The notes below the pieces were generated by a model. That model saw only the letters and a list, made by a program, of their open reading frames with translations. It was not told the origin of the DNA and did no database searches. The position numbers and the translations under genes are program-made. From an uncultured Bacteroidota bacterium (GTDB taxonomy: Bacteria > Bacteroidota > Bacteroidia > 2-12-FULL-35-15): a stretch of DNA of 37,618 bases. Positions 1-8,679 of the stretch are shown in pieces. The DNA is taken from contig CAIYIS010000042.1 in the NCBI GenBank assembly GCA_903926385.1, positions 1 to 37,618 of the forward strand, given 5' to 3'. Every line of letters starts with the position of its first letter. The stretch's first letter is position 1.

Positions 1-654
1 GAGAATTTAGAACAAAACGATTTAAAACTAGAAGAAATACTAGCAGACACAGGATACAGCGGAGGAGAAGAATTTGAATACCTTGAAAAAGAAAACATCA
101 CAGGCTATATACCCAATCACGGGCAATACAAACCATCTCGCGAAGGATTTATATACAATGAAGAAAAAGACCAATACGAATGTCAGCAAGGCAACAAAGC
201 CATATTACATTATAAAGGAACCAACAGAGATGCCTTAGGTTATAACCGAAAAAGTTATCGAAGCACCGTAAAAGATTGTAAAGATTGCCCATTACTACAG
301 CAATGTGCACCCGGTAAAGGTAAGTACAAAAAAATGGAACACAGCATTTACAGAAAACAATACGATATAATGCATCAACGCTTGCAAAGCAAGTATGCAA
401 AGCGAATGAAAAAACTCCGAAGCAGCACCGTAGAGCCTGTTTTAGGAACACTCATAAATTTTACCGGAATGCGCAGAATATGGACAAGAGGAATAAAGAA
501 TGCAAACAAATTTATGATAGGAGCCGCAATAGCTTACAATCTGAAGAAATACATGAAGTTTAAAGCACGAAAAGTAAACATACAGGTAGCAGAACTACCC
601 ATCCTACAAAAAGGACTCAACAAATTCCATCAAACTTATTTTTTCGCTTTATAG
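1..654 (+). CDS. IS1182-like DDE transposase, C-terminal part (5' end outside window)
   Basis: Frame 1 is open from the first base to the stop at 652-654, giving 217 codons of a transposase that catalyses cut-and-paste movement of its own insertion sequence. Seen directly: an ADTGYSGGE motif in which Asp16 (window numbering) fits the second catalytic Asp of DDE enzymes, a cysteine cluster CKDCPLLQQC before residue 105, and a VEPVLGTL motif whose Glu145 fits the catalytic Glu. It is followed by the usual basic RRIWTRG and AYNLKKY tail. This layout is that of the DDE_Tnp_1_6/IS1182-type group. The start codon and first catalytic Asp are upstream of the window. The visible part has no frameshift or internal stop, so the element may be intact. 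The family name is from motif memory; the transposase call itself is secure. Confidence 0.85.
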   Translation, partial: ENLEQNDLKLEEILADTGYSGGEEFEYLEKENITGYIPNHGQYKPSREGFIYNEEKDQYECQQGNKAILHYKGTNRDALGYNRKSYRSTVKDCKDCPLLQQCAPGKGKYKKMEHSIYRKQYDIMHQRLQSKYAKRMKKLRSSTVEPVLGTLINFTGMRRIWTRGIKNANKFMIGAAIAYNLKKYMKFKARKVNIQVAELPILQKGLNKFHQTYFFAL

Positions 655-775
655 CGATGGCAATTTAGCAGACTACTTTCCATCCCAAAAATCCCATCCT
701 CTCTTAAAACGCATCTATTGAGGTCGATTTTTCTGGTTTCTGCTTTATTTTTGTTTTAAAAGGGGGTTGTGCAAC
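1..775 (+). mobile_element. Right-hand part of an IS1182-like insertion sequence
   Basis: This stretch holds the 3' part of a DDE transposase gene followed by about 120 bases of non-coding DNA that ends in a G-rich GGGGGTTGTGCAAC word at 762-775. A terminal inverted repeat of this style is usual for such elements, but the left end lies outside the window, so neither the exact right end nor a target duplication can be confirmed. The next gene starts its coding region (on the other strand) only a few dozen bases further on. Confidence 0.6.
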
Positions 776-811
776 GGCTACTAATGTTATCAGTAGTTGT
801 TTGTCTTTCTG

Positions 812-2179
812 TTAGTGGTTTACAATTAGTTTTTGTGCTGTTGTTCCTTGCTTTGTCGTAACGTAAACTATGTAAACACCGTTGTTGTCAAGTTGTAAAT
901 TTGTTGTCTTTTGTGTTGCTTGTGTTTTTAGTATTTGTTGTCCAAGTATGTCTGTAACGCTAATTATAGCGTTGTCAGTTTGTAGTGCAATTATAAACTG
1001 TCCACTTGTTGGATTTGGAAATATTGAAGGTGTCAATTCTTCAACTGTTTCAATTGTAGTTGTAACAATCATTTGACAATTTCCAATTACTTGTGATGGA
1101 ACATGAGAATCTGTGCCGAAACCGCTGCCATTTCCAAGCGCAAAAGAGCCACCAAAACCTGCTGTCCATAAAGTGCCATCATTTTTAAGCACAAGAGGGT
1201 TTTTTAGTCCTGCCGCTATTTTTGAAACGTTTGTAAAATTAGTAAGAACAGGAGAAGTGCTGGAGTTTTGAAAGGTTCCATTAGCAAACTGTCCGTAATA
1301 ATTAGAACCCCATGTTCTTACAGTTCCATCGTTTTTGAGGGCTAAACTCTGATTGAAACAAGCAATGGCAACAGTCCCAGTAAGGGAATTTATTTGAGTA
1401 GGAACATTCAGGCTAGTAATATTTCCCTGTCCAGTATTAGTATAAATTCCCCAAGCCCACACCGAACCATCACTTTTTAAAGCCATACTATAACTAAAGC
1501 CTCCTGCAATAGAAACCACACCGGTTAAAGAACTTACCGGAACAGGAATATAACTATTATTATTTGTTCCATCTCCTAATTGTCCTTCAACGTCCCTTCC
1601 CCACGACCATATTGTACTGTCATTTTTTAATGCCAAACAATGTAAATCTCCTGCTGAAATAGCAATTATACCTGTAAGAGAAGGAACCTGAACGGGAACA
1701 CTACTATTATTATTAGTTCCGTCTCCGAGTTGCCCGCCAGCGCAATATCCCCAAACCCATACTGTACCATCACTTTTAAGTGCCATACTAAATTTATTTC
1801 TGGCAGATATAGCAACAATACCTGACAGTGATGTTACTTGGATAGGTACATTACTATCGTTAGTAGTTCCATCACCAAGTTCTCCATACTGGTTAAAACC
1901 CCACGACCAAACTGTACTATCATTTTTTAATGCAAGCGCATGTAGGTTACCTGCTGTAACTGCTATTACTCCCGTTAATGAATTAACCTGAACAGGAGTA
2001 GAACTTGGTACTACACCACCATTTCCGAGAGCACCAAATTGACCACTGCCCCATGCTTGTAAGGTGTTGTCTGCGCAAATGGCGTATTCATTGTAATCGC
2101 CAACTGCTATAATTTGTGCATTACTTTTTATAGTTAAAAACAGTAAAGCAATTAAACCTAAAGTGTAATTTTTTTTCAT
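812..2179 (-). CDS. Secreted RCC1-repeat protein with type IX secretion C-terminal sorting domain
   Basis: The 455-residue product begins with a signal peptide (MKKNYTLGLIALLFLTIKSN, then AQ) for Sec export. Residues of about 40-370 form some seven RCC1-type repeats, recognised by recurring WGxNxxGxLGDGT, VPxQVxSLTGxxAIxAG and ALKxDGTVWxWG segments. Seven such repeats would close a beta-propeller. The last 75 residues hold a type A T9SS sorting tail: SIFPNPTSGQF, then TDILGQ, and an ending of TAQKLIVNH. Such tails direct passage through the outer membrane and are then removed. The passenger therefore acts at the cell surface or outside; RCC1 propellers generally bind other proteins, and no enzymatic motif is seen. 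It stands alone, convergent with the upstream transposase. The start is supported by the signal peptide directly behind the ATG. Confidence 0.9.
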   Translation of the reverse strand: MKKNYTLGLIALLFLTIKSNAQIIAVGDYNEYAICADNTLQAWGSGQFGALGNGGVVPSSTPVQVNSLTGVIAVTAGNLHALALKNDSTVWSWGFNQYGELGDGTTNDSNVPIQVTSLSGIVAISARNKFSMALKSDGTVWVWGYCAGGQLGDGTNNNSSVPVQVPSLTGIIAISAGDLHCLALKNDSTIWSWGRDVEGQLGDGTNNNSYIPVPVSSLTGVVSIAGGFSYSMALKSDGSVWAWGIYTNTGQGNITSLNVPTQINSLTGTVAIACFNQSLALKNDGTVRTWGSNYYGQFANGTFQNSSTSPVLTNFTNVSKIAAGLKNPLVLKNDGTLWTAGFGGSFALGNGSGFGTDSHVPSQVIGNCQMIVTTTIETVEELTPSIFPNPTSGQFIIALQTDNAIISVTDILGQQILKTQATQKTTNLQLDNNGVYIVYVTTKQGTTAQKLIVNH

Positions 2180-2293
2180 TTTATTGTTGAGTGATGCCTC
2201 CGCAATTTAATTAATTATTTATTTTCTATTTGTGTTCTCTTGCTTACTCTGTTCGGTTTTCAGCTACCCCGTTCGTTACGCGCGCTCCTACAA

Positions 2294-2434
2294 TTGCTGA
2301 TAACGTTTTTGGGCTTGGCGAAGGTGGGGTTTAGAAAGTACTAAAGTTCAAATTTAGTACAAAAGTTTATAGAAACTACAAATGTTCAGCCTAGCACTAA
2401 AGCCCCACTTTTGCCAAACCCATGTTAGCGGCAG
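2294..2434. repeat. Long imperfect inverted repeat downstream of the GIY-YIG gene (site A)
   Basis: The arm at 2294-2334 (starting TTGCTGATAACG and ending GGTGGGGTTTAG) pairs imperfectly with the arm at 2397-2434 (starting CTAAAGCCCCAC and ending TGTTAGCGGCA). Shared segments include TTGGC, GTGGGG and TAAC/GTTA at the outer ends. A second hairpin is nested inside: GTACTAAA at 2338-2345 against TTTAGTAC at 2353-2360. The structure lies between the 5' end of the RCC1 gene and the 3' end of the GIY-YIG gene. It may serve as a terminator, a recombination site, or the boundary of a mobile unit; the sequence alone does not decide. Confidence 0.65.
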
Positions 2435-2449
2435 GTGTTTTGTCTGTCC

Positions 2450-3088
2450 TCACGATAATAATTGTTTTAAGTTGTCAAACTCTTGCTCGGTCAAAGCGTC
2501 ATTGTATAACTCGTTTACTTGCCAAAGTCCGCTTGCTTTTATCTTGTCTTTTGTCGAATGGTTACCTAACCATTTTTTTGAAGGTTTTAGTTCGTTTGAT
2601 TTTGCAAGTGTCGAAACAATTTTGCTTTCCCAAAAAAGTCTTTGTTCTTTAGTGTCAACTTGGAAAACACAAAAAGAAAGATTGTTTTGTATGTAGTCGC
2701 TAATCCTTTTTTCTGTCTTTTTTTCAAAGTCAAGGTCAAGTAGTTTTAAATTCTTTTCCTTTTCTGCTTTTGAAGTTATATCAAGTTCCCATAAAGTCAG
2801 ATATGGACTTTGGTCTTTATTCAATATGCAACGTCCAATATTTTTTCTAAAAATGCTTCTGTTCTTATTTTCCTTTACAAAGTGTTGGTTAAGTCGAGAA
2901 CGAAGTTGCTTCTCGCCTGTATGAGTTCCTACTCTAACAATTCTGTTTGTGTCGTTAAATGTTTCTCCGTTTTCAAATATTATGTAAATGCCATTTTTCG
3001 GAATTTCATTTTCTTTTTGTTTGAAAGGAAACGTAAAACGTGTCTGTTCATTAAATAATTTATGAAGTCTAACAGTTAGTGATATCAT
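2450..3088 (-). CDS. GIY-YIG-like nuclease-family protein (function unknown)
   Basis: The 212-residue product has a GIY-YIG-like core. NGIYIIFEN around residues 32-40 carries the GIY triad (G33-I34-Y35), RIVRVGTHTG around 49-58 stands in for the YIG strand, and LRSRLNQHF (62-70) supplies the conserved Arg helix. RSIFRKNIG follows, and WESKIVSTL nearer the C terminus holds a candidate metal-binding Glu. GIY-YIG domains cut or nick DNA. This branch, with a VRVGTH strand and a RGSIFR-like segment, is a widely spread but uncharacterised group as far as I recall. Its ATG overlaps the stop of the upstream DUF6884-like gene in an ATGA (3085-3088), so the two are almost surely translated together. 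The C-terminal third looks family-specific and I recognise nothing in it. A defence or mobile-element role is inference. Confidence 0.7.
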   Translation of the reverse strand: MISLTVRLHKLFNEQTRFTFPFKQKENEIPKNGIYIIFENGETFNDTNRIVRVGTHTGEKQLRSRLNQHFVKENKNRSIFRKNIGRCILNKDQSPYLTLWELDITSKAEKEKNLKLLDLDFEKKTEKRISDYIQNNLSFCVFQVDTKEQRLFWESKIVSTLAKSNELKPSKKWLGNHSTKDKIKASGLWQVNELYNDALTEQEFDNLKQLLS

Positions 3089-3552
3089 TTTAGTTTATTG
3101 ATTAAAAATTGAACCCTTTCACCTTGTCTAAGTTTCTTTCCGTTTAAAACAAATGGTTTTTCGATGTTTTTTAATTTGTCCTGAATAGGTTTTATATAAT
3201 CTTCCCCTGCTAAAATGATAAATTTATCATTATCAATGTCGGCAACCTTCCTTAAATCAGCAACAACTTTTTCGCCCCATTTTTTTGTTTCATCTTTTGT
3301 CAATACTGTCAGATGAGGCTTTTTTAATAGTTCTTTTGGTGTAATATATTTTAATGTAACATCATAAGGTTCTATTTCTTTGTCAAGTTCAAGTAAATAA
3401 TGTAAAGCCGATAGAATATAAATTTTGTCAGGTTTTAATTTCAGTCCATATGCCAAACTTTTTGTAAAAAGTGACCCTCTATACAAGTCTTTTGCTTTTG
3501 CTTTTGTGTCACCTTTTGAAGCAACACAAGATATTAACACTATTCGTTTCAT
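3085..3552 (-). CDS. DUF6884-like protein (function unknown)
   Basis: The 155-residue cytoplasmic protein (no signal peptide or membrane segment) opens with KRIVLISCVASKG. It continues with AKDLYRGSLFTKSLAYG, then ILSALHYLLELDKEIEPYDVTL, and FIILAGEDYI later on. This order (short beta strand ending in SC, a K-rich loop, DLYxGxLFxKxxAYA, an SAxYGLL-like stretch, then PYDxTL) is the pattern I associate with DUF6884, a family found in phages and accessory islands. No biochemical activity is known to me. The conserved Cys/Ser loop suggests a nucleotide or small-molecule site, which is inference. It is the first gene of the coupled pair, with a four-base overlap with the GIY-YIG gene. An inverted copy of the TTAGCGGCA word lies just upstream at 3573-3587. 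Confidence 0.6.
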   Translation of the reverse strand: MKRIVLISCVASKGDTKAKAKDLYRGSLFTKSLAYGLKLKPDKIYILSALHYLLELDKEIEPYDVTLKYITPKELLKKPHLTVLTKDETKKWGEKVVADLRKVADIDNDKFIILAGEDYIKPIQDKLKNIEKPFVLNGKKLRQGERVQFLINKLK

Positions 3553-3572
3553 TGTCGTGATGTCGTTTGTTA

Positions 3573-3661
3573 CACTTGCCGCTAACAGTTATTATGCGCT
3601 ACTCCAAATCCATTTATAGCGCAATGCATACCTAATTTGGCAGGATTTGCGCTATAACTTG
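3573..3661. repeat. Composite hairpin region upstream of the DUF6884-like gene (site B)
   Basis: TTATAGCGCAA at 3614-3624 is a perfect inverted repeat of TTGCGCTATAA at 3647-3657. An alternative, larger fold pairs GTTAT, GCGC and AAATCC on the left (from about 3588) with GGATTT, GCGC and ATAAC on the right (to 3658), leaving unpaired bulge bases. Bulged inverted repeats of this kind are typical of folded recombination substrates, but the outer boxes do not match integron attC consensus well. It also covers the likely promoter region of the minus-strand pair. Confidence 0.5.
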
Positions 3662-3807
3662 TTTTGTTCAGTAGCGTATATTTATAATAATTTGTCAAGT
3701 GGCGATTGTATTTTGCTTAAATGTTTTTTGCCTTTGCAGGTGTTTTTCAACTGCCCCCCCCATTTCAAAATCTTTTACAAATATACACTATTATTATATA
3801 CCCAAAA

Positions 3808-3843
3808 AACAATCCCACCCATTTCTGAGCGGGATTGTTGTTT
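3808..3843. terminator. Hairpin, possible terminator or boundary element
   Basis: AACAATCCC at 3808-3816 pairs perfectly with GGGATTGTT at 3831-3839 around a 14-base loop, followed by a T-rich GTTTTAATT tail. No gene ends directly before it on the plus strand. On the minus strand it is followed by a run of T, so it could end transcription coming from the 4236-4859 gene and the 21-bp array. Confidence 0.4.
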
Positions 3844-3891
3844 TAATTCTAACCATTTTTTATTGCTGTTAGCAAACCGAGTACTTCATTT

Positions 3892-4185
3892 GTTAAAGGA
3901 AGTACTTCATTTGTTAAAGGAAGTACTTCCCTTGTTAAAGGAAGTACTTCATCTGTTAAAGGAAGCACTTCTCTTGTTAAAGGAAGTACTTCTCTTGTTA
4001 AAGGAAGTACTTCTCTTGTTAAAGGAAGTACTTCTCTTGTTAAAGGAAGTACTTCTCCTGTTAAAGGAAGTACTTCATTTGTTAAAGGAAGTACTTCATT
4101 TGTTAAAGGAAGTACTTCCCTTGTTAAAGGAAGTACTTCATTTGTTAAAGGAAGTACTTCCCTTGTTAAAGGAAGTACTTCTCTT
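3892..4185. repeat. Tandem array, 14 copies of a 21-bp unit with an internal palindrome
   Basis: Fourteen head-to-tail units of exactly 21 bp run without interruption, with a partial copy at 3879-3891. Each unit is GTTAAAGGAAGTACTTC plus four variable bases (ATTT, CCTT, ATCT, TCTT, TCCT). The unit contains the 10-bp palindrome GAAGTACTTC, broken in one copy (GAAGCACTTC). Because 21 is a multiple of three, the array keeps a reading frame open that would give a Leu-Leu-Lys-Glu heptad protein; with no credible start or body, I do not call it a gene. The array lies between site B and the gene at 4236-4859. Confidence 0.95.
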
Positions 4186-4201
4186 GATAAATGGATGAGA
4201 T

Positions 4202-4230
4202 TAATTTATTATTGTATGGATAATAAATTA
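4202..4230. terminator. AT-only hairpin at the 3' end of the unknown gene at 4236-4859
   Basis: TAATTTATTAT (4202-4212) and ATAATAAATTA (4220-4230) form an 11-bp perfect stem with a 7-base loop. It starts six bases beyond the stop codon of the minus-strand gene, so it is well placed as its transcript end. The stem has no G or C and there is no T-run tail, which makes it a weak intrinsic terminator at best; it may instead protect the RNA 3' end. Confidence 0.45.
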
Positions 4231-4235
4231 GTTAA

Positions 4236-4859
4236 CTACTTGTGGATAGCGAATTTTTTCCAGTCAGTCCAGTCGGAATAGAGGTTTTTTGGTAAAATCT
4301 GACGGTTGCGAAGCCAGAAAAACTTGTTTAAATCCAGCCCTTCAATTACTTTTTCGCCTGTTCGGCTGGGGTCAACATCTTTATAGGTTGCTCCCATGTC
4401 ATAGCTGATTTGAATTTGATGAGGGCCTGCACCAAGCATACGGTAAAGCACCGAGCCGGGCAATGGGCCGTCCAAAATTTCGTCTTGCCTAGGGCCATGA
4501 GCCGTATGCGATTTTAACTCCATTTCAAAACTTTCGGCAATGGCTGTTGCGGTGGTTTCGCTGGTGGTGGCGTTTACCAGTTTTTGACAATCGAGGCGGT
4601 AGCTCTCTATGTCGGCCTCCATTTTGTTTACTGCCGCATCGCGGTTATTAGTCGTAATCGTGGGCGGGATAGTTTTTGTGCCCGCTTCGGCATCAGATGC
4701 CGCCTGAATGTCGGTGTTAAAATTTGCCACTGTGGGGCTGGGTGTGCCGTAATACGTATTGCCCGTTACTCCATTTTTAATAGCTATGGCTTTTACAATT
4801 TTGTCGGCCACTGCATCCGGCATGTTTACTACTACTTCAAATTTAGGTGTTGTACTCAT
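4236..4859 (-). CDS. Unknown protein with helical N-terminal half and fibronectin III-like C-terminal end
   Basis: I do not recognise a named family. The 207-residue product has no signal peptide. Residues 1-30 (PKFEVVVNMPDAVADKIVKA) resemble a short strand-helix. The middle (about 45-115) is Ala/Thr/Asp-rich and probably helical. From about residue 130 the pattern GSVLYRMLGAGPHQIQISYD, then EGLDLNKFFWLRNRQI and DWTDWKKFAI resembles the end of a fibronectin III-like fold. Proteins of about this size and build occur as single genes in Bacteroidota, in my memory, without assigned function. It sits alone between two repeat arrays and reads away from the response regulator. A 12-bp word (TGTATGGATAAT) lies on both sides of it, at 4213-4224 and 4890-4901. 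Its DNA looks less AT-rich than its flanks. Confidence 0.65.
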   Translation of the reverse strand: MSTTPKFEVVVNMPDAVADKIVKAIAIKNGVTGNTYYGTPSPTVANFNTDIQAASDAEAGTKTIPPTITTNNRDAAVNKMEADIESYRLDCQKLVNATTSETTATAIAESFEMELKSHTAHGPRQDEILDGPLPGSVLYRMLGAGPHQIQISYDMGATYKDVDPSRTGEKVIEGLDLNKFFWLRNRQILPKNLYSDWTDWKKFAIHK

Positions 4860-4973
4860 TTTGTTTTTTTTTTAGATATTATTAATTAATGTATGGATAA
4901 TTGTGTTGAAACAATTGACTAATTATTTCGCCTCAAAATTACCTTGCACTTCATTTCAAAAATCGAGAACTAG

Positions 4974-5120
4974 GTAAAGTTTTTGGTTTACTATGTAAAG
5001 TTTTAGGTTTACAAAACTGGCCTGATGTAAAGTTTTTAGTTTACGTATGTAAAGTTTTAGGTTTACAAAAACAGTCCGATGTAAAGTTTTTAGTTTACAT
5101 ATGTAAACTTTTAGGTTTAC
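4974..5120. repeat. Six phased 18-bp dyads (GTAAA-N8-TTTAC)
   Basis: Copies of GTAAAGTTTTAGGTTTAC or close variants begin at 4974, 4995, 5027, 5049, 5081 and 5103. Every copy is a dyad with GTAAA and TTTAC ends; the last is perfect over six bases (GTAAAC/GTTTAC). The start-to-start steps are 21, 32, 22, 32 and 22 bp, close to 2, 3, 2, 3 and 2 helical turns, and copies two apart are 54 bp apart. The array fills the divergent intergenic region between the unknown gene (start 4859) and the response regulator (start 5235). A cooperative DNA-binding site is a reasonable inference. Confidence 0.85.
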
Positions 5121-5165
5121 ATAACTCAAGTTTAGCACTTATCAATCAATTTTTTTGCGAAATAA

Positions 5166-5197
5166 TTTGTAATAAAAGATTTTTAAATTTACATTTG
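5166..5197 (+). promoter_or_regulatory. Bacteroidota-type promoter of the response regulator gene
   Basis: TTTG at 5166-5169 and TACATTTG at 5190-5197 are separated by 20 bp, matching the TTTG / TAnnTTTG arrangement known for the primary sigma factor of Bacteroidota. The start codon follows 37 bp later, and the dyad array ends 45 bp upstream of the -33 element. Confidence 0.6.
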
Positions 5198-5234
5198 TCA
5201 CTCCATTTCAAATAGTTTAAAAAAATAAGTTGCC

Positions 5235-5933
5235 ATGGAAACAAAAATAAAGCTCGCCATTATAGATGATTTCAAATGTATTCAGGAAGCAATAACCAAA
5301 TTGTTTCTCCAACAAGCCGAAATGACTGTGGTTACTCAAGCCGAATCGGGCATTGATTTTTTTAGAGAGCAAGAGTTTCAGGCCCACGACATGGTTATTA
5401 TCGACATGGCAACCTCTGCACATGCGCATGACGACACGCTGAGAGCATTGCAGGAGTTTTTTCCCGAAATAAAAGTTATTGTATTTACTGCCGAAACCAA
5501 TCCGGAGGCTCTTCTGATGCTTATGCACAAAGGTGCACACGGCATTATCAGCAAAACAAATGACTCCGGTCAAATTATGTGTACCATCAACGAAGTGATG
5601 CAACAAGGCAGCAGTTACCCACATGCAGTTTCCAAACATCTGTTCAGCCGCCATTTTAACCCCAATCGTACCGAAGATGTGCATACTCTCCTTGCTGAGT
5701 TAGATAAAAAGGACATCGACATTTTGCTTCATTTGGCACAAGGACACAAGCTAGCCTACATCGAAAACCGAGTGGTCATCACCAGACAAGGCTTATACAA
5801 TAGGAGAACGTATATGTGCCAGCTTTTTCATCTCAACGATATCGACCTTTTACCCGCCTTTGCCAAAAAACACATCACCATCATTCAATCCCTAGCCGAT
5901 GCTTTTACTAAAAGCGAAGAGAGGGGAGAGTGA
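5235..5933 (+). CDS. Orphan response regulator, NarL/LuxR-like
   Basis: The 232-residue protein has an N-terminal receiver domain with the expected residues in order: acidic pair Asp11-Asp12 after IKLAII, phospho-acceptor Asp57 in MVIIDM, Thr85 in VIVFTAE and Lys107 in GIISK. A linker follows at about 120-150. A C-terminal helical region (ELDKKDIDILLHLAQGHK, then RVVITRQGLYNRRTYM) resembles a LuxR-type helix-turn-helix in which consensus residues are poorly kept. It should receive phosphate from a sensor kinase and act on DNA, but no kinase gene lies in this window. The gene stands alone behind its own promoter and the six-dyad array, which makes self-regulation or control of the divergent gene conceivable. 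The DNA-binding part could be divergent or altered in specificity; the receiver call is secure. Confidence 0.85.
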   Translation: METKIKLAIIDDFKCIQEAITKLFLQQAEMTVVTQAESGIDFFREQEFQAHDMVIIDMATSAHAHDDTLRALQEFFPEIKVIVFTAETNPEALLMLMHKGAHGIISKTNDSGQIMCTINEVMQQGSSYPHAVSKHLFSRHFNPNRTEDVHTLLAELDKKDIDILLHLAQGHKLAYIENRVVITRQGLYNRRTYMCQLFHLNDIDLLPAFAKKHITIIQSLADAFTKSEERGE

Positions 5934-6109
5934 TTATTAATTATTGATTATTGTTTATTGACTATTGTTTATTGACTATTGCAAAATTGTCCAATTGAAT
6001 AATTGCCCAATTGTCAAATTGGAGAATTGTCCAATTGAATAATTTCCTCCCTTCATTCGTAAATTCCTACCTGTTCGTATTTCGTAAATACATCATCGAA
6101 CTTATTTTC
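5934..6109. repeat. Self-similar AT-rich intergenic words
   Basis: The region between the response regulator and the DUF3109 gene contains two copies of TTATTGACTATTG and two exact copies of AATTGTCCAATTGAATAATT (5985-6004 and 6025-6044, 40 bp apart). CAATTG-type palindromic words abound. Patchwork words of this kind are common between Bacteroidota genes, and I see no gene or clear regulatory site in it apart from the promoter at its end. Confidence 0.6.
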
Positions 6110-6118
6110 TACTTTTGC
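6110..6118 (+). promoter_or_regulatory. -7 element in front of the DUF3109 gene
   Basis: TACTTTTGC matches the Bacteroidota -7 pattern TAnnTTTGC and lies 20 bp before the start codon at 6138. No clear TTTG -33 element is seen at the expected distance. Confidence 0.5.
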
Positions 6119-6137
6119 CGGCCAAACACTAAAGAAA

Positions 6138-6701
6138 ATGATTGCAATAGACAATACCATAATTTCGGAACATCTGCTGGAGAAAAAATTTGTATGCGAT
6201 ATTAATGCTTGCAAAGGCGAATGCTGTGTGCAGGGCGACTCGGGCGCTCCTCTGGAATTTGAAGAAATTGCAATAATGGAAGATATACTGGATGAAGTAG
6301 CTCCTTATTTGCCCAAAGATGGTTTGAAATCCATTAAAAAACAAGGGGTTTTTGTGATAGACGATGACGGAGATTACACCACACCCCTGGTTAAAGGCAA
6401 ACATTGTGCGTTTACTTATTTTGAAGACGGAATTGCCAAATGTGCTATCGAAAAGGCTTATTATGATGGAAAAGTAACATTCAAAAAACCGATTTCCTGC
6501 CATTTGTATCCGGTGCGAATAACCAAGTATAAAGACTACGAAGCGGTAAATTACCACAAGTGGGAAGTATGTAAACCTGCCTGCGATTGCGGAGCAAAGC
6601 TGGATGTGCCGGTTTATAAATTTTTGCGCGAACCTTTAATTCGCAAATATGGCGAAGATTGGTATAAAAAACTCGAACTTGCCGATAAGATGAAAAAGTA
6701 G
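6138..6701 (+). CDS. DUF3109 family cysteine-rich protein
   Basis: The 187-residue product matches the DUF3109 family, a conserved Bacteroidota protein of unknown role related to CxxxxCC (YkgJ-like) metal-binding proteins. Cysteine motifs seen in order are CDINACKGECC near residues 20-30, a lone Cys in KGKHCAFTYF and another in AKCAIEK, ISCHLYPVRI around 120, and CKPACDCG near 150. The set suggests coordination of iron-sulfur or zinc. Length and motif order look full-size and intact. There is no signal peptide, so it should be cytoplasmic. It has its own promoter and sits 74 bp upstream of gltX on the same strand, possibly partly co-transcribed. The function is not known to me and context offers no firm hint. 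Confidence 0.85.
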   Translation: MIAIDNTIISEHLLEKKFVCDINACKGECCVQGDSGAPLEFEEIAIMEDILDEVAPYLPKDGLKSIKKQGVFVIDDDGDYTTPLVKGKHCAFTYFEDGIAKCAIEKAYYDGKVTFKKPISCHLYPVRITKYKDYEAVNYHKWEVCKPACDCGAKLDVPVYKFLREPLIRKYGEDWYKKLELADKMKK

Positions 6702-6748
6702 CGTTTGCGAAACGGTTACTTGGGCTGAGCAACTTGAAACAATTCCAT

Positions 6749-6757
6749 TATCTTTGC
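6749..6757 (+). promoter_or_regulatory. -7 element in front of gltX
   Basis: TATCTTTGC is a full match to TAnnTTTGC and lies 18 bp before the gltX start codon. The leader would be very short. Confidence 0.55.
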
Positions 6758-6775
6758 GCCCCTATTCAATAAAAA

Positions 6776-8323
6776 ATGGAAAACAGAAGAGTACGATTAC
6801 GATTTGCACCCAGCCCCACCGGAGGGCTTCACATGGGTGGTGTGCGCACAGCATTATTCAGTTATTTATTTGCCAAAAAACACAATGGCGATTTTATACT
6901 CCGTATAGAAGATACCGACCAAACCCGCTATGTTAACGGGGCCGAAGAATACATCATAGCTGCATTGAAATGGTGCGGCATAGAACCCAACGAAGGGGTT
7001 GGTTTTGGTGATGGCAAATTTTCGCCTTATCGCCAAAGCGAGCGTAAAGAACTTGGCATTTATGCTAAATATGCTCAACAGCTCATCGACAGCGGACATG
7101 CTTATTATGCTTTCGACACAGCCGAAGAACTGGATGCCATGCGCAAACGATTGGAAGCTGCTAAAGTGGCTGCTCCGCAATACAATTCGGTAAGCCGACA
7201 GAACATGCGCAATTCGTTAACCCTTTCGGAAGACGAAGTAAAAAAACTAATGGATGCCGGAACTCCTTATGTGGTGCGACTTAAAGTACCGCGCAACGAA
7301 GAAATTCGCTTTCACGATATCATTCGTGGATGGGTAGTGGTTAATTCCACTCAGGTGGATGATAAAGTTTTGTTGAAAAGCGATGGAATGCCAACTTACC
7401 ATTTGGCGCATATTGTTGATGATATTGAAATGGAAGTGTCGCATACGGTAAGAGGCGAAGAATGGTTGCCATCGGCTCCTTCTCATATTCTTATTTACAG
7501 ATACCTTGGCAAAGAAGAGGTGATGCCCAAGTTGGCTCACTTGCCGCTGATACTTAAACCCGATGGAAATGGTAAACTATCGAAACGTGATAAATCGGGT
7601 ATCCCTATGTTTCCCCTCAATTGGTTTGACGAACGCACTAACGAAAGTTATACAGGCTACCGCGAGTCGGGATTTTTCCCTGAAGCATTTATCAATATGC
7701 TGGGCATGTTGGGCTGGAATCCGGGTACACCACAGGAAATATTTTCGTTGGACGAATTGGTGGAGGCATTTACCTTTGAACGGGTAAATAAATCGGGAGC
7801 TAAATTCGATCCGGAGAAAACAAAATGGTTCAATCAGCAATACCTGCGTAAGAAATCGGATACCGAACTGGCAGAATTGTTTATGCCAATCTTAAAAGAA
7901 AAACTGGAAGAATCTCAAGTCTCAAATCTCAAATCTCCAGTCTATATTGAGGGTGTTTGTAGATTGGTTAAAGAGAAATCACATTTTGTAAATGAGTTTT
8001 GGGAATCGGGTAAATACTTTTTTATTGCGCCAACCTCTTATGATGAAAAAGTGATTTCGAAAAAATGGAATGAGAATTCGAAAACTATTTTCCAGCATAT
8101 GATGAATGAGTTCAATGGCCTGACCACCTGGGATGCTACAACTGTGCACACTGCCATAACCAATACCGAAGCGGCAACAAGCGCAAAGGTAGATTTGCAA
8201 TTGCTCAGAGTACTTACCTCGGGTGCAGCCGGAGGTCCTGCCATACACGATATGTTGGTGCTGATAGGCAAGGAAGAAATAGTGAAACGAATAGCTACCG
8301 CCATCGAACAACTAAATAAATAA
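6776..8323 (+). CDS. gltX: Glutamyl-tRNA synthetase
   Basis: This class I synthetase charges tRNA-Glu with glutamate in the cytoplasm. Seen directly: the HIGH-type motif PSPTGGLHMGG (residues 12-22), the family segment LRIEDTDQTR, and the KMSKS-type motif KLSKRD at about residues 267-272. The 515-residue length is normal for the family in Bacteroidota, and the ATG lies directly behind a good promoter. The C-terminal anticodon-binding part is present. One oddity is an insert-like stretch, EESQVSNLKSP (about residues 378-388), encoded by repetitive DNA at 7911-7943 (tandem AATCTC/AAGTCTC words) like that seen between genes in this phylum. It keeps the frame. folB follows after five bases, so the two are very likely co-transcribed. 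If this organism makes tRNA-Gln by the indirect route, GltX and the GatA in this window would work in succession. Confidence 0.97.
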   Translation: MENRRVRLRFAPSPTGGLHMGGVRTALFSYLFAKKHNGDFILRIEDTDQTRYVNGAEEYIIAALKWCGIEPNEGVGFGDGKFSPYRQSERKELGIYAKYAQQLIDSGHAYYAFDTAEELDAMRKRLEAAKVAAPQYNSVSRQNMRNSLTLSEDEVKKLMDAGTPYVVRLKVPRNEEIRFHDIIRGWVVVNSTQVDDKVLLKSDGMPTYHLAHIVDDIEMEVSHTVRGEEWLPSAPSHILIYRYLGKEEVMPKLAHLPLILKPDGNGKLSKRDKSGIPMFPLNWFDERTNESYTGYRESGFFPEAFINMLGMLGWNPGTPQEIFSLDELVEAFTFERVNKSGAKFDPEKTKWFNQQYLRKKSDTELAELFMPILKEKLEESQVSNLKSPVYIEGVCRLVKEKSHFVNEFWESGKYFFIAPTSYDEKVISKKWNENSKTIFQHMMNEFNGLTTWDATTVHTAITNTEAATSAKVDLQLLRVLTSGAAGGPAIHDMLVLIGKEEIVKRIATAIEQLNK

Positions 8324-8328
8324 CCACG

Positions 8329-8679
8329 ATGCACAAAGTACTAGTAGAAGGAATAAAAGTGTATGCCTATCATGGCTGCATGGAAGAAGAAGCCCGACTG
8401 GGAGGAAATTATGTGGTGGATGTAACCATAGAAACCGATTTTACGGAAGCTGCCATCACCGATGATTTAACCAAAACAGTGGATTATGTGGCTGTATGCA
8501 ATATAGTAAAAGAAGAAATGGCTATCCGCTCTAAGTTGATAGAACAAGTTGGGAAACGTATTGTAGACCGAATAAAGCGAGAAATAAACGGAATACTAAA
8601 AGTAAAAGTAAGAGTAAACAAACTCAACCCTCCTATTAACGGGGTGGTGAGCGTAGTGAGTATAGAAATAGAAGAATAA
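8329..8679 (+). CDS. folB: Dihydroneopterin aldolase
   Basis: The 116-residue enzyme belongs to the folate pathway and splits 7,8-dihydroneopterin into 6-hydroxymethyl-dihydropterin and glycolaldehyde. The family hallmarks are present: VEGIKVYAYHGCMEEE at residues 7-22 with the usual YAYHG segment and following Glu, then YVVDVTIETDF, a TVDYVAVCNIV stretch in the middle, LIEQVGKRIVDRI with its conserved Glu, and the VRVNKLNPPINGVV strand near the end. Length is typical for the small homo-oligomeric enzyme. It starts five bases after gltX, which implies one transcript. The tRNA-Cys gene begins 47 bases downstream behind its own promoter. No other folate genes are in the window. Confidence 0.93.
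   Translation: MHKVLVEGIKVYAYHGCMEEEARLGGNYVVDVTIETDFTEAAITDDLTKTVDYVAVCNIVKEEMAIRSKLIEQVGKRIVDRIKREINGILKVKVRVNKLNPPINGVVSVVSIEIEE

Follow-up and report, generated by a model that had tools for sequence, protein, structure and literature searches.

What is the compact two-gene unit near one end of contig CAIYIS010000042.1, how does it move, and what might its protein pair do? The stretch analysed (the window) comprises positions 1 to 37,618 of this contig from an uncultured Bacteroidota bacterium (assembly GCA_903926385.1; lineage 2-12-FULL-35-15), and carries on its minus strand a DUF6884 gene followed by a GIY-YIG nuclease gene, both enclosed by inverted words. Our analysis indicates that the region is probably a mobile integron-like cassette carrying a two-gene nuclease module, the PADLOC candidate system PDC-M57. 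That the unit is an integron-like cassette can be said with high confidence, and this cassette carrier, not the protein pair, is the chief novelty.

A two-gene unit between inverted arms

The DUF6884 gene, first of the pair (PADLOC PDC-M57A; 3085–3552, minus strand, 155 amino acids), scored 119 bits with the Pfam profile PF21818, well above its cut-off of 30. A 4-nt ATGA overlap joins it to the GIY-YIG gene (PDC-M57B; 2450–3088, minus strand, 212 amino acids), which was assigned to GIY_YIG_2 (PF20815), and the window list of open reading frames (ORFs) contained no other frame of note in this cassette. In the sense of the genes, the cassette starts at the upstream arm (3572–3587, minus; TGTTAGCGGCAAGTGT), made up of an R′-like box and a leader, and the downstream arm (2423–2438, minus; ACACCTGCCGCTAACA) contains an R″-like box. 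The two arms pair at 15 of 16 positions (94% complementary over 16 nt). Five copies of the arm word were found in the window at up to three mismatches, compared with 0.72 expected, and the only mismatch-free copies were the two arms themselves. The two minus-strand genes with their ATGA overlap, and the near-perfect inverted words around them, were found where the original prediction had placed them. Its unit limits of 2423–3587 were right as to the arms but too short, as the structured site at 2290–2438 belongs to the unit as well.

An attC-like hairpin beside the left arm

The structured site (2290–2438, minus strand), a predicted hairpin of ~148 nt, is built like the attC site of an integron and lies between two cassettes, its two outer boxes being the end of one and the start of the next. 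Folding of 2292–2438 as DNA gave a z value of −4.9 for the plus strand, with 0/200 shuffles as good; integron attC sites are used as the bottom strand (PMC2727003). Beside the other arm, 3570–3670 gave z −2.7 on both strands (3/200 and 1/200 shuffles).

Eight sites, of 144–151 nt between the chosen ends, made up the seed alignment, in which changes on both sides support 8 of 15 predicted pairs. The covariance model built from it (R1) has its 3′ stem partners one column off, so its hits rest mainly on sequence, and all site counts reported here come from this wrong-register model. R1 scored the window site, one of its own training rows, at 138.1 bits. Within the genus it detected sites in 32 of the 36 genomes at E 0.01, and across the phylum, with no more than ten candidates scored per genome, in 127 of the 296 Bacteroidota genomes at E 0.001; these genome counts ignore kinship. 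The stem was also scored in the correct register over 67 sites, which include the eight training rows and were aligned by the wrong-register fit. In this set 83.4% of the cells were paired compared with 74.5% in shuffles, double changes numbered 118 compared with 54.6, and the covariation score was 0.256 compared with 0.127, none of 500 shuffles reaching any of these values; further pair types were less striking (36 compared with 30.7; 4/500). When the partner was slid one column either way, paired cells fell to 56% or 44%. Covariation among the aligned sites supports the predicted hairpin stem.

The arm words were also searched for by pattern. Over 21 genus genomes the enrichment was modest (35 matches versus 14 in the reversed control), and the test for an inverted partner was weak in bulk (13/39 inner versus 6/39 outer, with overlapping loci repeating rows). 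Only 3 of the 36 genus genomes contained the leader pattern in its strict form. Many of the arm-word matches lie inside ordinary genes and are likely due to chance.

Copies of the cassette in other genomes and sister cassettes at home

The GIY-YIG protein was 86% identical over the matched stretch in two loci, from Moraxellaceae bacterium REDSEA-S32_B1 (L090) and an uncultured Acinetobacter (L089), and its identity across phyla was 84–86%. When the DNA of these loci was compared with window positions 1–8500, they matched only at 2413–3587 (77.8%), that is, from the leader box to 10 bases beyond the other arm. The L090 cassette stands alone with its own ~150-nt hairpin, between a short gene and a convergent M16 peptidase-like gene (by eye). 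The Moraxellaceae cassette is the strongest single piece of evidence for an integron-like cassette, and its passage between phyla speaks for a function of the pair that is both useful and portable. The flank upstream of the window cassette (3588–4096; right part a tandem repeat) also has a copy on contig C7 of the same genome, 77.7% identical over 548 columns (window 3576–4096). This copy abuts a gene different from that of the window, and the similarity ends no more than 12 bases from the cassette boundary. Taken together, the Moraxellaceae match confined to the cassette, the hairpin site and the flank copy with another gene uphold the suggestion that the unit is packaged and mobile.

The window's own genome contains sister cassettes. 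On contig C83 (136–1092; L018) a single gene of 265 amino acids, DUF2971-like by eye, has similar ends, and contig C75 (L243:53–1148) carries a cassette with a PLD-like gene of 246 amino acids (by eye), bounded by two sites of 21 and 52 bits. In all four own-genome cassettes (DUF6884/GIY-YIG, the RCC1 cassette described below, C83 and C75) the gene points away from the leader box. The arms differ between cassettes yet pair within each (three own-genome cassettes; RCC1 by eye). The C75 cassette is followed by a type I restriction subunit fragment and an insertion sequence (IS), both named by eye. At another locus of the genus (L285; G479:C147), the GIY-YIG relative is 41% identical and a DUF2130-like neighbour (by eye) replaces DUF6884; the site match there is partial and weak.

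One-way site arrays and a candidate integrase

Eighteen array stretches were picked for their strong sites, several being neighbours on one contig. Sites were present in 17 of them, and within each stretch all pointed one way (69 sites in total, out of 74; the five weakest were left out and have the same direction as their stretch-mates). Site length was 142–151 nt in 66 of the 69, and 53 of the 60 main genes ran in the sense of the sites. At the head of three arrays was a tyrosine recombinase. With one of these as the query, relatives were found in 98 of the 296 Bacteroidota genomes (E 1e-36 or better). The distances to sites were obtained from 102 of 130 integrase rows and from the sites listed: 27 matches lay on contigs with a listed site, of which 21 were within 15 kb, all of them upstream and 19 on the same strand as the site, and one of the 28 rows left out (a second fragment of the G295 gene) would join this near group. 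The six others were 27 to 343 kb away (G049, G284 second match, G186, G007 second match, G287 and G294 second match). Sites were present in 73 of the 98 integrase genomes versus 54 of the 198 others, again with kinship ignored. In the G057 array, a reverse transcriptase-like gene (L228:9048–9884, by eye) separates the integrase from the first site.

The match of the array integrases to the integron-integrase (IntI) profile TIGR02249 consisted of two separate stretches with a gap, as it did for the housekeeping XerD; the lineage apparently lacks a middle part of the classical profile. NF040815 (XerA-type), which NCBI describes as ‘site-specific tyrosine recombinase/integron integrase’, was the top-scoring family for each of the five array-type recombinases scanned. 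Its cut-off of 220 was passed by one array recombinase (225.5) and also by XerD of the window's own genome (222.2). We propose that a tyrosine recombinase of this kind would act on the folded site, and that the cassette would therefore enter and leave as a unit. The window copy would be stranded, because no such integrase was found in its own genome (E 1e-36; 6 of 8 candidates).

The DUF6884/GIY-YIG pair as a recurring unit

In PADLOC, the DUF6884 protein matched PDLC04712 (PDC-M57A) at 2e-50 and the GIY-YIG protein PDLC04713 (PDC-M57B) at 4.7e-99; the DUF6884 protein also matched DpdC models (best 7.2e-7). The pair is thus already catalogued as the candidate system PDC-M57, a prefix which we take to mean ‘phage defence candidate’. 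A literature search on the PDC-M57 names returned no report of anti-phage activity and no paper bearing the name.

Named genomes were scanned with four aligned GIY-YIG relatives, of which three have the partner next to them, the scan itself being blind to the partner. It yielded 71 loci in bacteria and archaea, which include the near-identical L089 and L090, and among which L115, L153 and L156 seem to be the same genomes as L015, L016 and L017. With a purpose-built DUF6884 family profile, the partner was detected on the same strand, overlapping or within 60 bases, at 51 of the 71 loci (one of them, L135, doubtful because of a weak score and a long overlap), with DUF6884 first at 32 and the nuclease first at 19. 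At six further loci (Treponema, Capnocytophaga and a clostridium) both domains were in one open frame, and at two more, L159 and L151, the partner was no more than 130 bases away, lying on the opposite strand in L151. DUF6884 without this nuclease also occurs, on plasmids, in phages and beside a restriction-modification pair (L020, by eye). No GIY-YIG relative was found on plasmids or phages, though DUF6884 relatives were present there; viral contigs had no relative of either protein, a search of E. coli found none, and a sequence search of the PDB gave nothing meaningful. Within the genus, 2 of 36 genomes had a GIY-YIG relative; across the phylum, BLAST pointed to one in 7 of the 296 genomes, of which four were taken as true, the matches in G061, G151 and G170 being discounted as Fpg/Nei-like or short (by eye).

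These results agree with the original prediction that the pair is co-translated, the partners sitting side by side on one strand at 51 of 71 loci and being fused at six, and that it belongs to the accessory DNA, given its presence in 2 of 36 genus genomes. The idea of a new system was not borne out, because PADLOC already lists both proteins, and the genes next to the 71 loci gave little sign of a defence island.

Protein folds and a proposed function

The AlphaFold model of the window DUF6884 protein (pLDDT 97) had a single Foldseek match at or below 0.001, YaaA (5caj; 5.7e-5). A second aligner gave Z 9.2 over 134 residues for YaaA and Z 7.9 for AF0587. In the fused Treponema relative (pLDDT 94, pTM 0.72), the first domain aligned with YaaA (Z 10.2, 126 residues) and the second with the UvrC GIY-YIG domain 1yd6 (Z 5.7, 83 of 88 residues), the latter tied with unrelated rows; Foldseek with the whole fused protein gave no match at or below 0.001. 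Among the invariant residues of DUF6884 are C9, K13, Y24, S48, Y63 and W92 (30 sequences), and in 34 aligned GIY-YIG sequences G33, Y35, G54, R81 and E154 are invariant, residues whose catalytic role is assigned by analogy with GIY-YIG enzymes. DpdC has a role in 7-deazaguanine chemistry.

DUF6884 has been described as related to YaaA, with a cleft that probably binds DNA, a predicted flipped base and the motifs CxxxK and LSAxxG, and YfjM, a DUF6884 protein, as one of the interactors of DNA lesions, both abasic and RNA-base (PMC11701544); dpdC has been named as an example of DUF6884 (PMC11888242). From the YaaA-like fold and these papers we infer that DUF6884 would recognise a base and that the coupled nuclease would cut. 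The possible nucleotide-handling partner suggested at the outset is plausible as a base-handling protein in the light of the YaaA fold and the DpdC similarity. In foreign DNA, DUF6884 would flip or process a base that is unusual or damaged, and the translationally coupled or fused GIY-YIG partner would cut at that point. The pair would in this way restrict foreign DNA that carries such modifications or lesions. It is highly likely that the two proteins act together. A role of the pair against phages or other mobile DNA is somewhat favoured, and the dependence of cutting on an unusual or damaged base is put forward tentatively.

Array cargo and links to resistance genes

The cargo scan covered 56 proteins, namely 53 same-sense array genes (seven in the opposite sense were dropped) and three from the window's own genome. 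It had no control set, so the survey is descriptive and carries no claim of enrichment. Among the matches listed (the 25 commonest families of 134 and of 51) were AccI- and Eco47II-type restriction endonucleases, methyltransferases, Shedu SduA, PDC-M34A and B and two Thoeris-like TIR proteins. Also among them were a UvrD helicase, which matched both DRT-associated and Gabija models, the SIR2 component of an Argonaute system, a MutH-like protein, and glyoxalases along with proteins of the beta-lactamase fold. Such cargo makes a defence role for the window cassette plausible. Defence-rich integrons occur in Vibrio.

The L090 hairpin matched six plasmid records, from Myroides, Flavobacterium and Riemerella. 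The window hairpin matched 48 plasmid records, of which 46 were from Acinetobacter, although weakly among the rows listed (E 3e-3, 72 bases, 76.7%). Five plasmid stretches were opened, and in three of them (L162–L164) sites of the family lay beside resistance genes, namely blaOXA (Riemerella), tet(X) (Empedobacter) and tet(X3) (A. indicus); in the Myroides and Flavobacterium stretches they did not. Three array integrases also matched the recombinase beside tet(X3) on the A. indicus plasmid (5e-62 to 1.5e-71). In transformation of Riemerella anatipestifer, aph(3′)-IVb was inserted independently of homology, together with a 27-bp 5′ and a 140-bp 3′ untranslated stretch; the stretch folds like attC, the case was likened to lnu(H) and blaRATA, and a site-specific mechanism was suggested (PMC13148043).

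Overall, we lean towards the view that Bacteroidota have their own distinct and largely unrecognised integron system, with sites of ~148 nt, its own box consensus, its own integrase lineage and one-way arrays that are often laden with defence genes. Such a system would load phylum-crossing single cassettes such as PDC-M57 and would be the source of cassette-form tet(X) and some blaOXA, the recombinase adjacent to tet(X3) being an integrase remnant. A large survey with IntegronFinder 2.0 described complete integrons as rare in Bacteroidota (PMC9024848), and the paper on archaeal integrons counts Bacteroidota among the phyla with integrons, at varying prevalence. Our literature search for a Bacteroidota integron class found no title on one, its coverage of subscription journals and preprints being thin and a treatment within other papers possible.

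The second cassette and other features of the window

Downstream of the attC-like site lies the gene for an RCC1-repeat protein with a secretion tail (812–2179, minus; PF25390, PF00415 and PF18962). Its downstream arm (786–800, minus) and its upstream arm, which is also the R′-like box of the attC-like site (2290–2304, minus), pair at 13 of 15 positions; both were placed by eye. By its ends and layout the RCC1 gene is a second cassette, built like the DUF6884/GIY-YIG one. No structured site was found past the 786–800 arm, and the model scan of the window showed no further site. The leader of this cassette contains an Rfam match to DUF805b RNA (2241–2273, minus; 36.5 bits, gathering score 35.6), and an Rfam scan of seven cassette loci gave nothing reaching the gathering score. 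Beyond the RCC1 gene is an IS transposase of the DDE type (1–654, plus; PF13751), truncated by the contig end. The IS which the original prediction had placed next to the unit is 1.8 kb away, with the RCC1 gene in between.

On the other side of the pair, a tandem repeat of ~21 bp (3880–4190, by eye) has kin on contigs C7, C57, C62 and C79 of the same genome, and ATGTAAAGTTTTTAGTTTAC-like words are repeated upstream of a response-regulator gene (4975–5115, by eye).

Weighing the cassette and its alternatives

Several observations weigh against a mobile integron-like cassette with a nuclease module. The minus (gene-sense) strand of 2292–2438 folded weakly (z −2.3, 6/200 shuffles), R1 has the register fault noted above, and it found no site at the C83 cassette. 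The classical R-box consensus is RYYYAAC and GTTRRRY; the R″ box CGCTAAC and R′ box GTTATCA of the window lie outside it, and among the 67 sites it was matched at only 3 of 64 and 1 of 59 that bear the boxes. All array integrases scored below the TIGR02249 cut-off (best 210.6 versus 265). No site was found in 25 of the 98 integrase genomes, and 54 site genomes lacked such an integrase. In the window's own genome, none of the candidates scored (six of eight) reached E 1e-36 as a relative of the integrase, and nothing exceeded the TIGR02249 cut-off. With regard to the module, the Pfam assignment of GIY-YIG is marginal, as PF20815 gave 23.0 bits versus a cut-off of 22.4 and PF01541 stayed under its own cut-off, and the partner was absent at 12 of the 71 loci (two at a contig edge). 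A structured site was detected at only 2 of the 52 PDC-M57 loci searched (L089–L140), which means that the pair mostly lies outside such cassettes. Of the 126 ORFs nearest to the 71 loci, 108 were scanned; they matched 29 families at 1e-10, each of the 25 listed being matched by a single protein, a weak defence-island signal. Because the R boxes and integrases fall outside the classical limits, we file the unit as integron-like and not as an integron.

The alternatives address partly different levels and need not exclude a cassette with a nuclease module. As to the hairpins, they might be regulatory RNA or terminators, for which the DUF805b match in the second cassette's leader could be cited; this is very improbable, given that the site spans both cassette ends, that the similarity of the two flank copies stops at the GTT box (within 12 bases) and that the published aph(3′)-IVb insertion brought its 5′ and 3′ stretches without flanking homology (PMC13148043). 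Even harder to sustain is a small transposon (a miniature inverted-repeat transposable element with cargo) moved by a DDE enzyme, its arms being terminal repeats and the hairpin incidental. The compact layout with inverted ends, and the presence of an IS at a distance of 1.8 kb, would fit such an element. Against it, the sequence just beyond the arms shows no target-site duplication by eye, the arms vary between cassettes while pairing within each, the sites have a near-constant length and a covarying stem, and arrays have a tyrosine recombinase at their heads.

With respect to function, the pair could be a host DNA-repair module in which DUF6884 finds abasic or ribonucleotide lesions and GIY-YIG incises as UvrC does, with no anti-phage role. 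YfjM as an interactor of such lesions (PMC11701544), the YaaA-like fold and the alignment of the fused relative's nuclease domain with UvrC, tied as it is with unrelated rows, all speak for repair. We nevertheless regard this as unlikely, since the GIY-YIG relative is patchy within genus and phylum and the pair rides a mobile cassette with 84–86% protein identity across phyla. A dpd-like modification system, with DUF6884 altering a host base and the nuclease cutting unmodified DNA, would agree with the DpdC similarity and with dpdC as a DUF6884 example (PMC11888242), but is improbable for a two-gene cassette with no further notable open frame for a base-inserting enzyme.

Significance and comparison with known systems

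If the cassette interpretation is true, Bacteroidota would possess their own version of the integron despite the rarity of complete integrons in the phylum. This would account for the movement of defence genes, and of some resistance genes, one at a time and without visible mobile elements, and would supply a candidate integrase together with its site. The transfer of the cassette across phyla also makes PDC-M57 a worthwhile assay target.

Compared with PDC-M57 as catalogued, the window pair matched both protein models and has adjacent, co-directional genes, but it rides an integron-like cassette, which most of the searched relatives do not. As with integrons and clusters of attC sites lacking an integrase (CALIN), one or two genes are followed by a structured site, arrays run in the same direction (two cassettes in the window), a tyrosine recombinase heads several arrays and the cargo is varied; the R boxes, the nearly fixed site length near 148 nt and the integrases under the IntI cut-off are different. 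XerA-type NF040815 is the closest family of the array recombinases, a likeness that is unspecific, as the genome's own XerD passes too. The DUF6884 protein resembles YaaA (5caj) in fold and the DpdC models in sequence. It differs from YaaA in having only 21–23% identity in the structural alignments, and in the window protein the CxxxK motif is kept and LSAxxG only partly (LSALHYL, with the last G lost). By description, Riemerella anatipestifer offers a close parallel for the carrier in the homology-independent insertion of aph(3′)-IVb, lnu(H) and blaRATA, where a short leader and an attC-like 3′ stretch of ~140 nt move with the gene; the section on this insertion leaves the integrase and the cassette family unnamed (PMC13148043).

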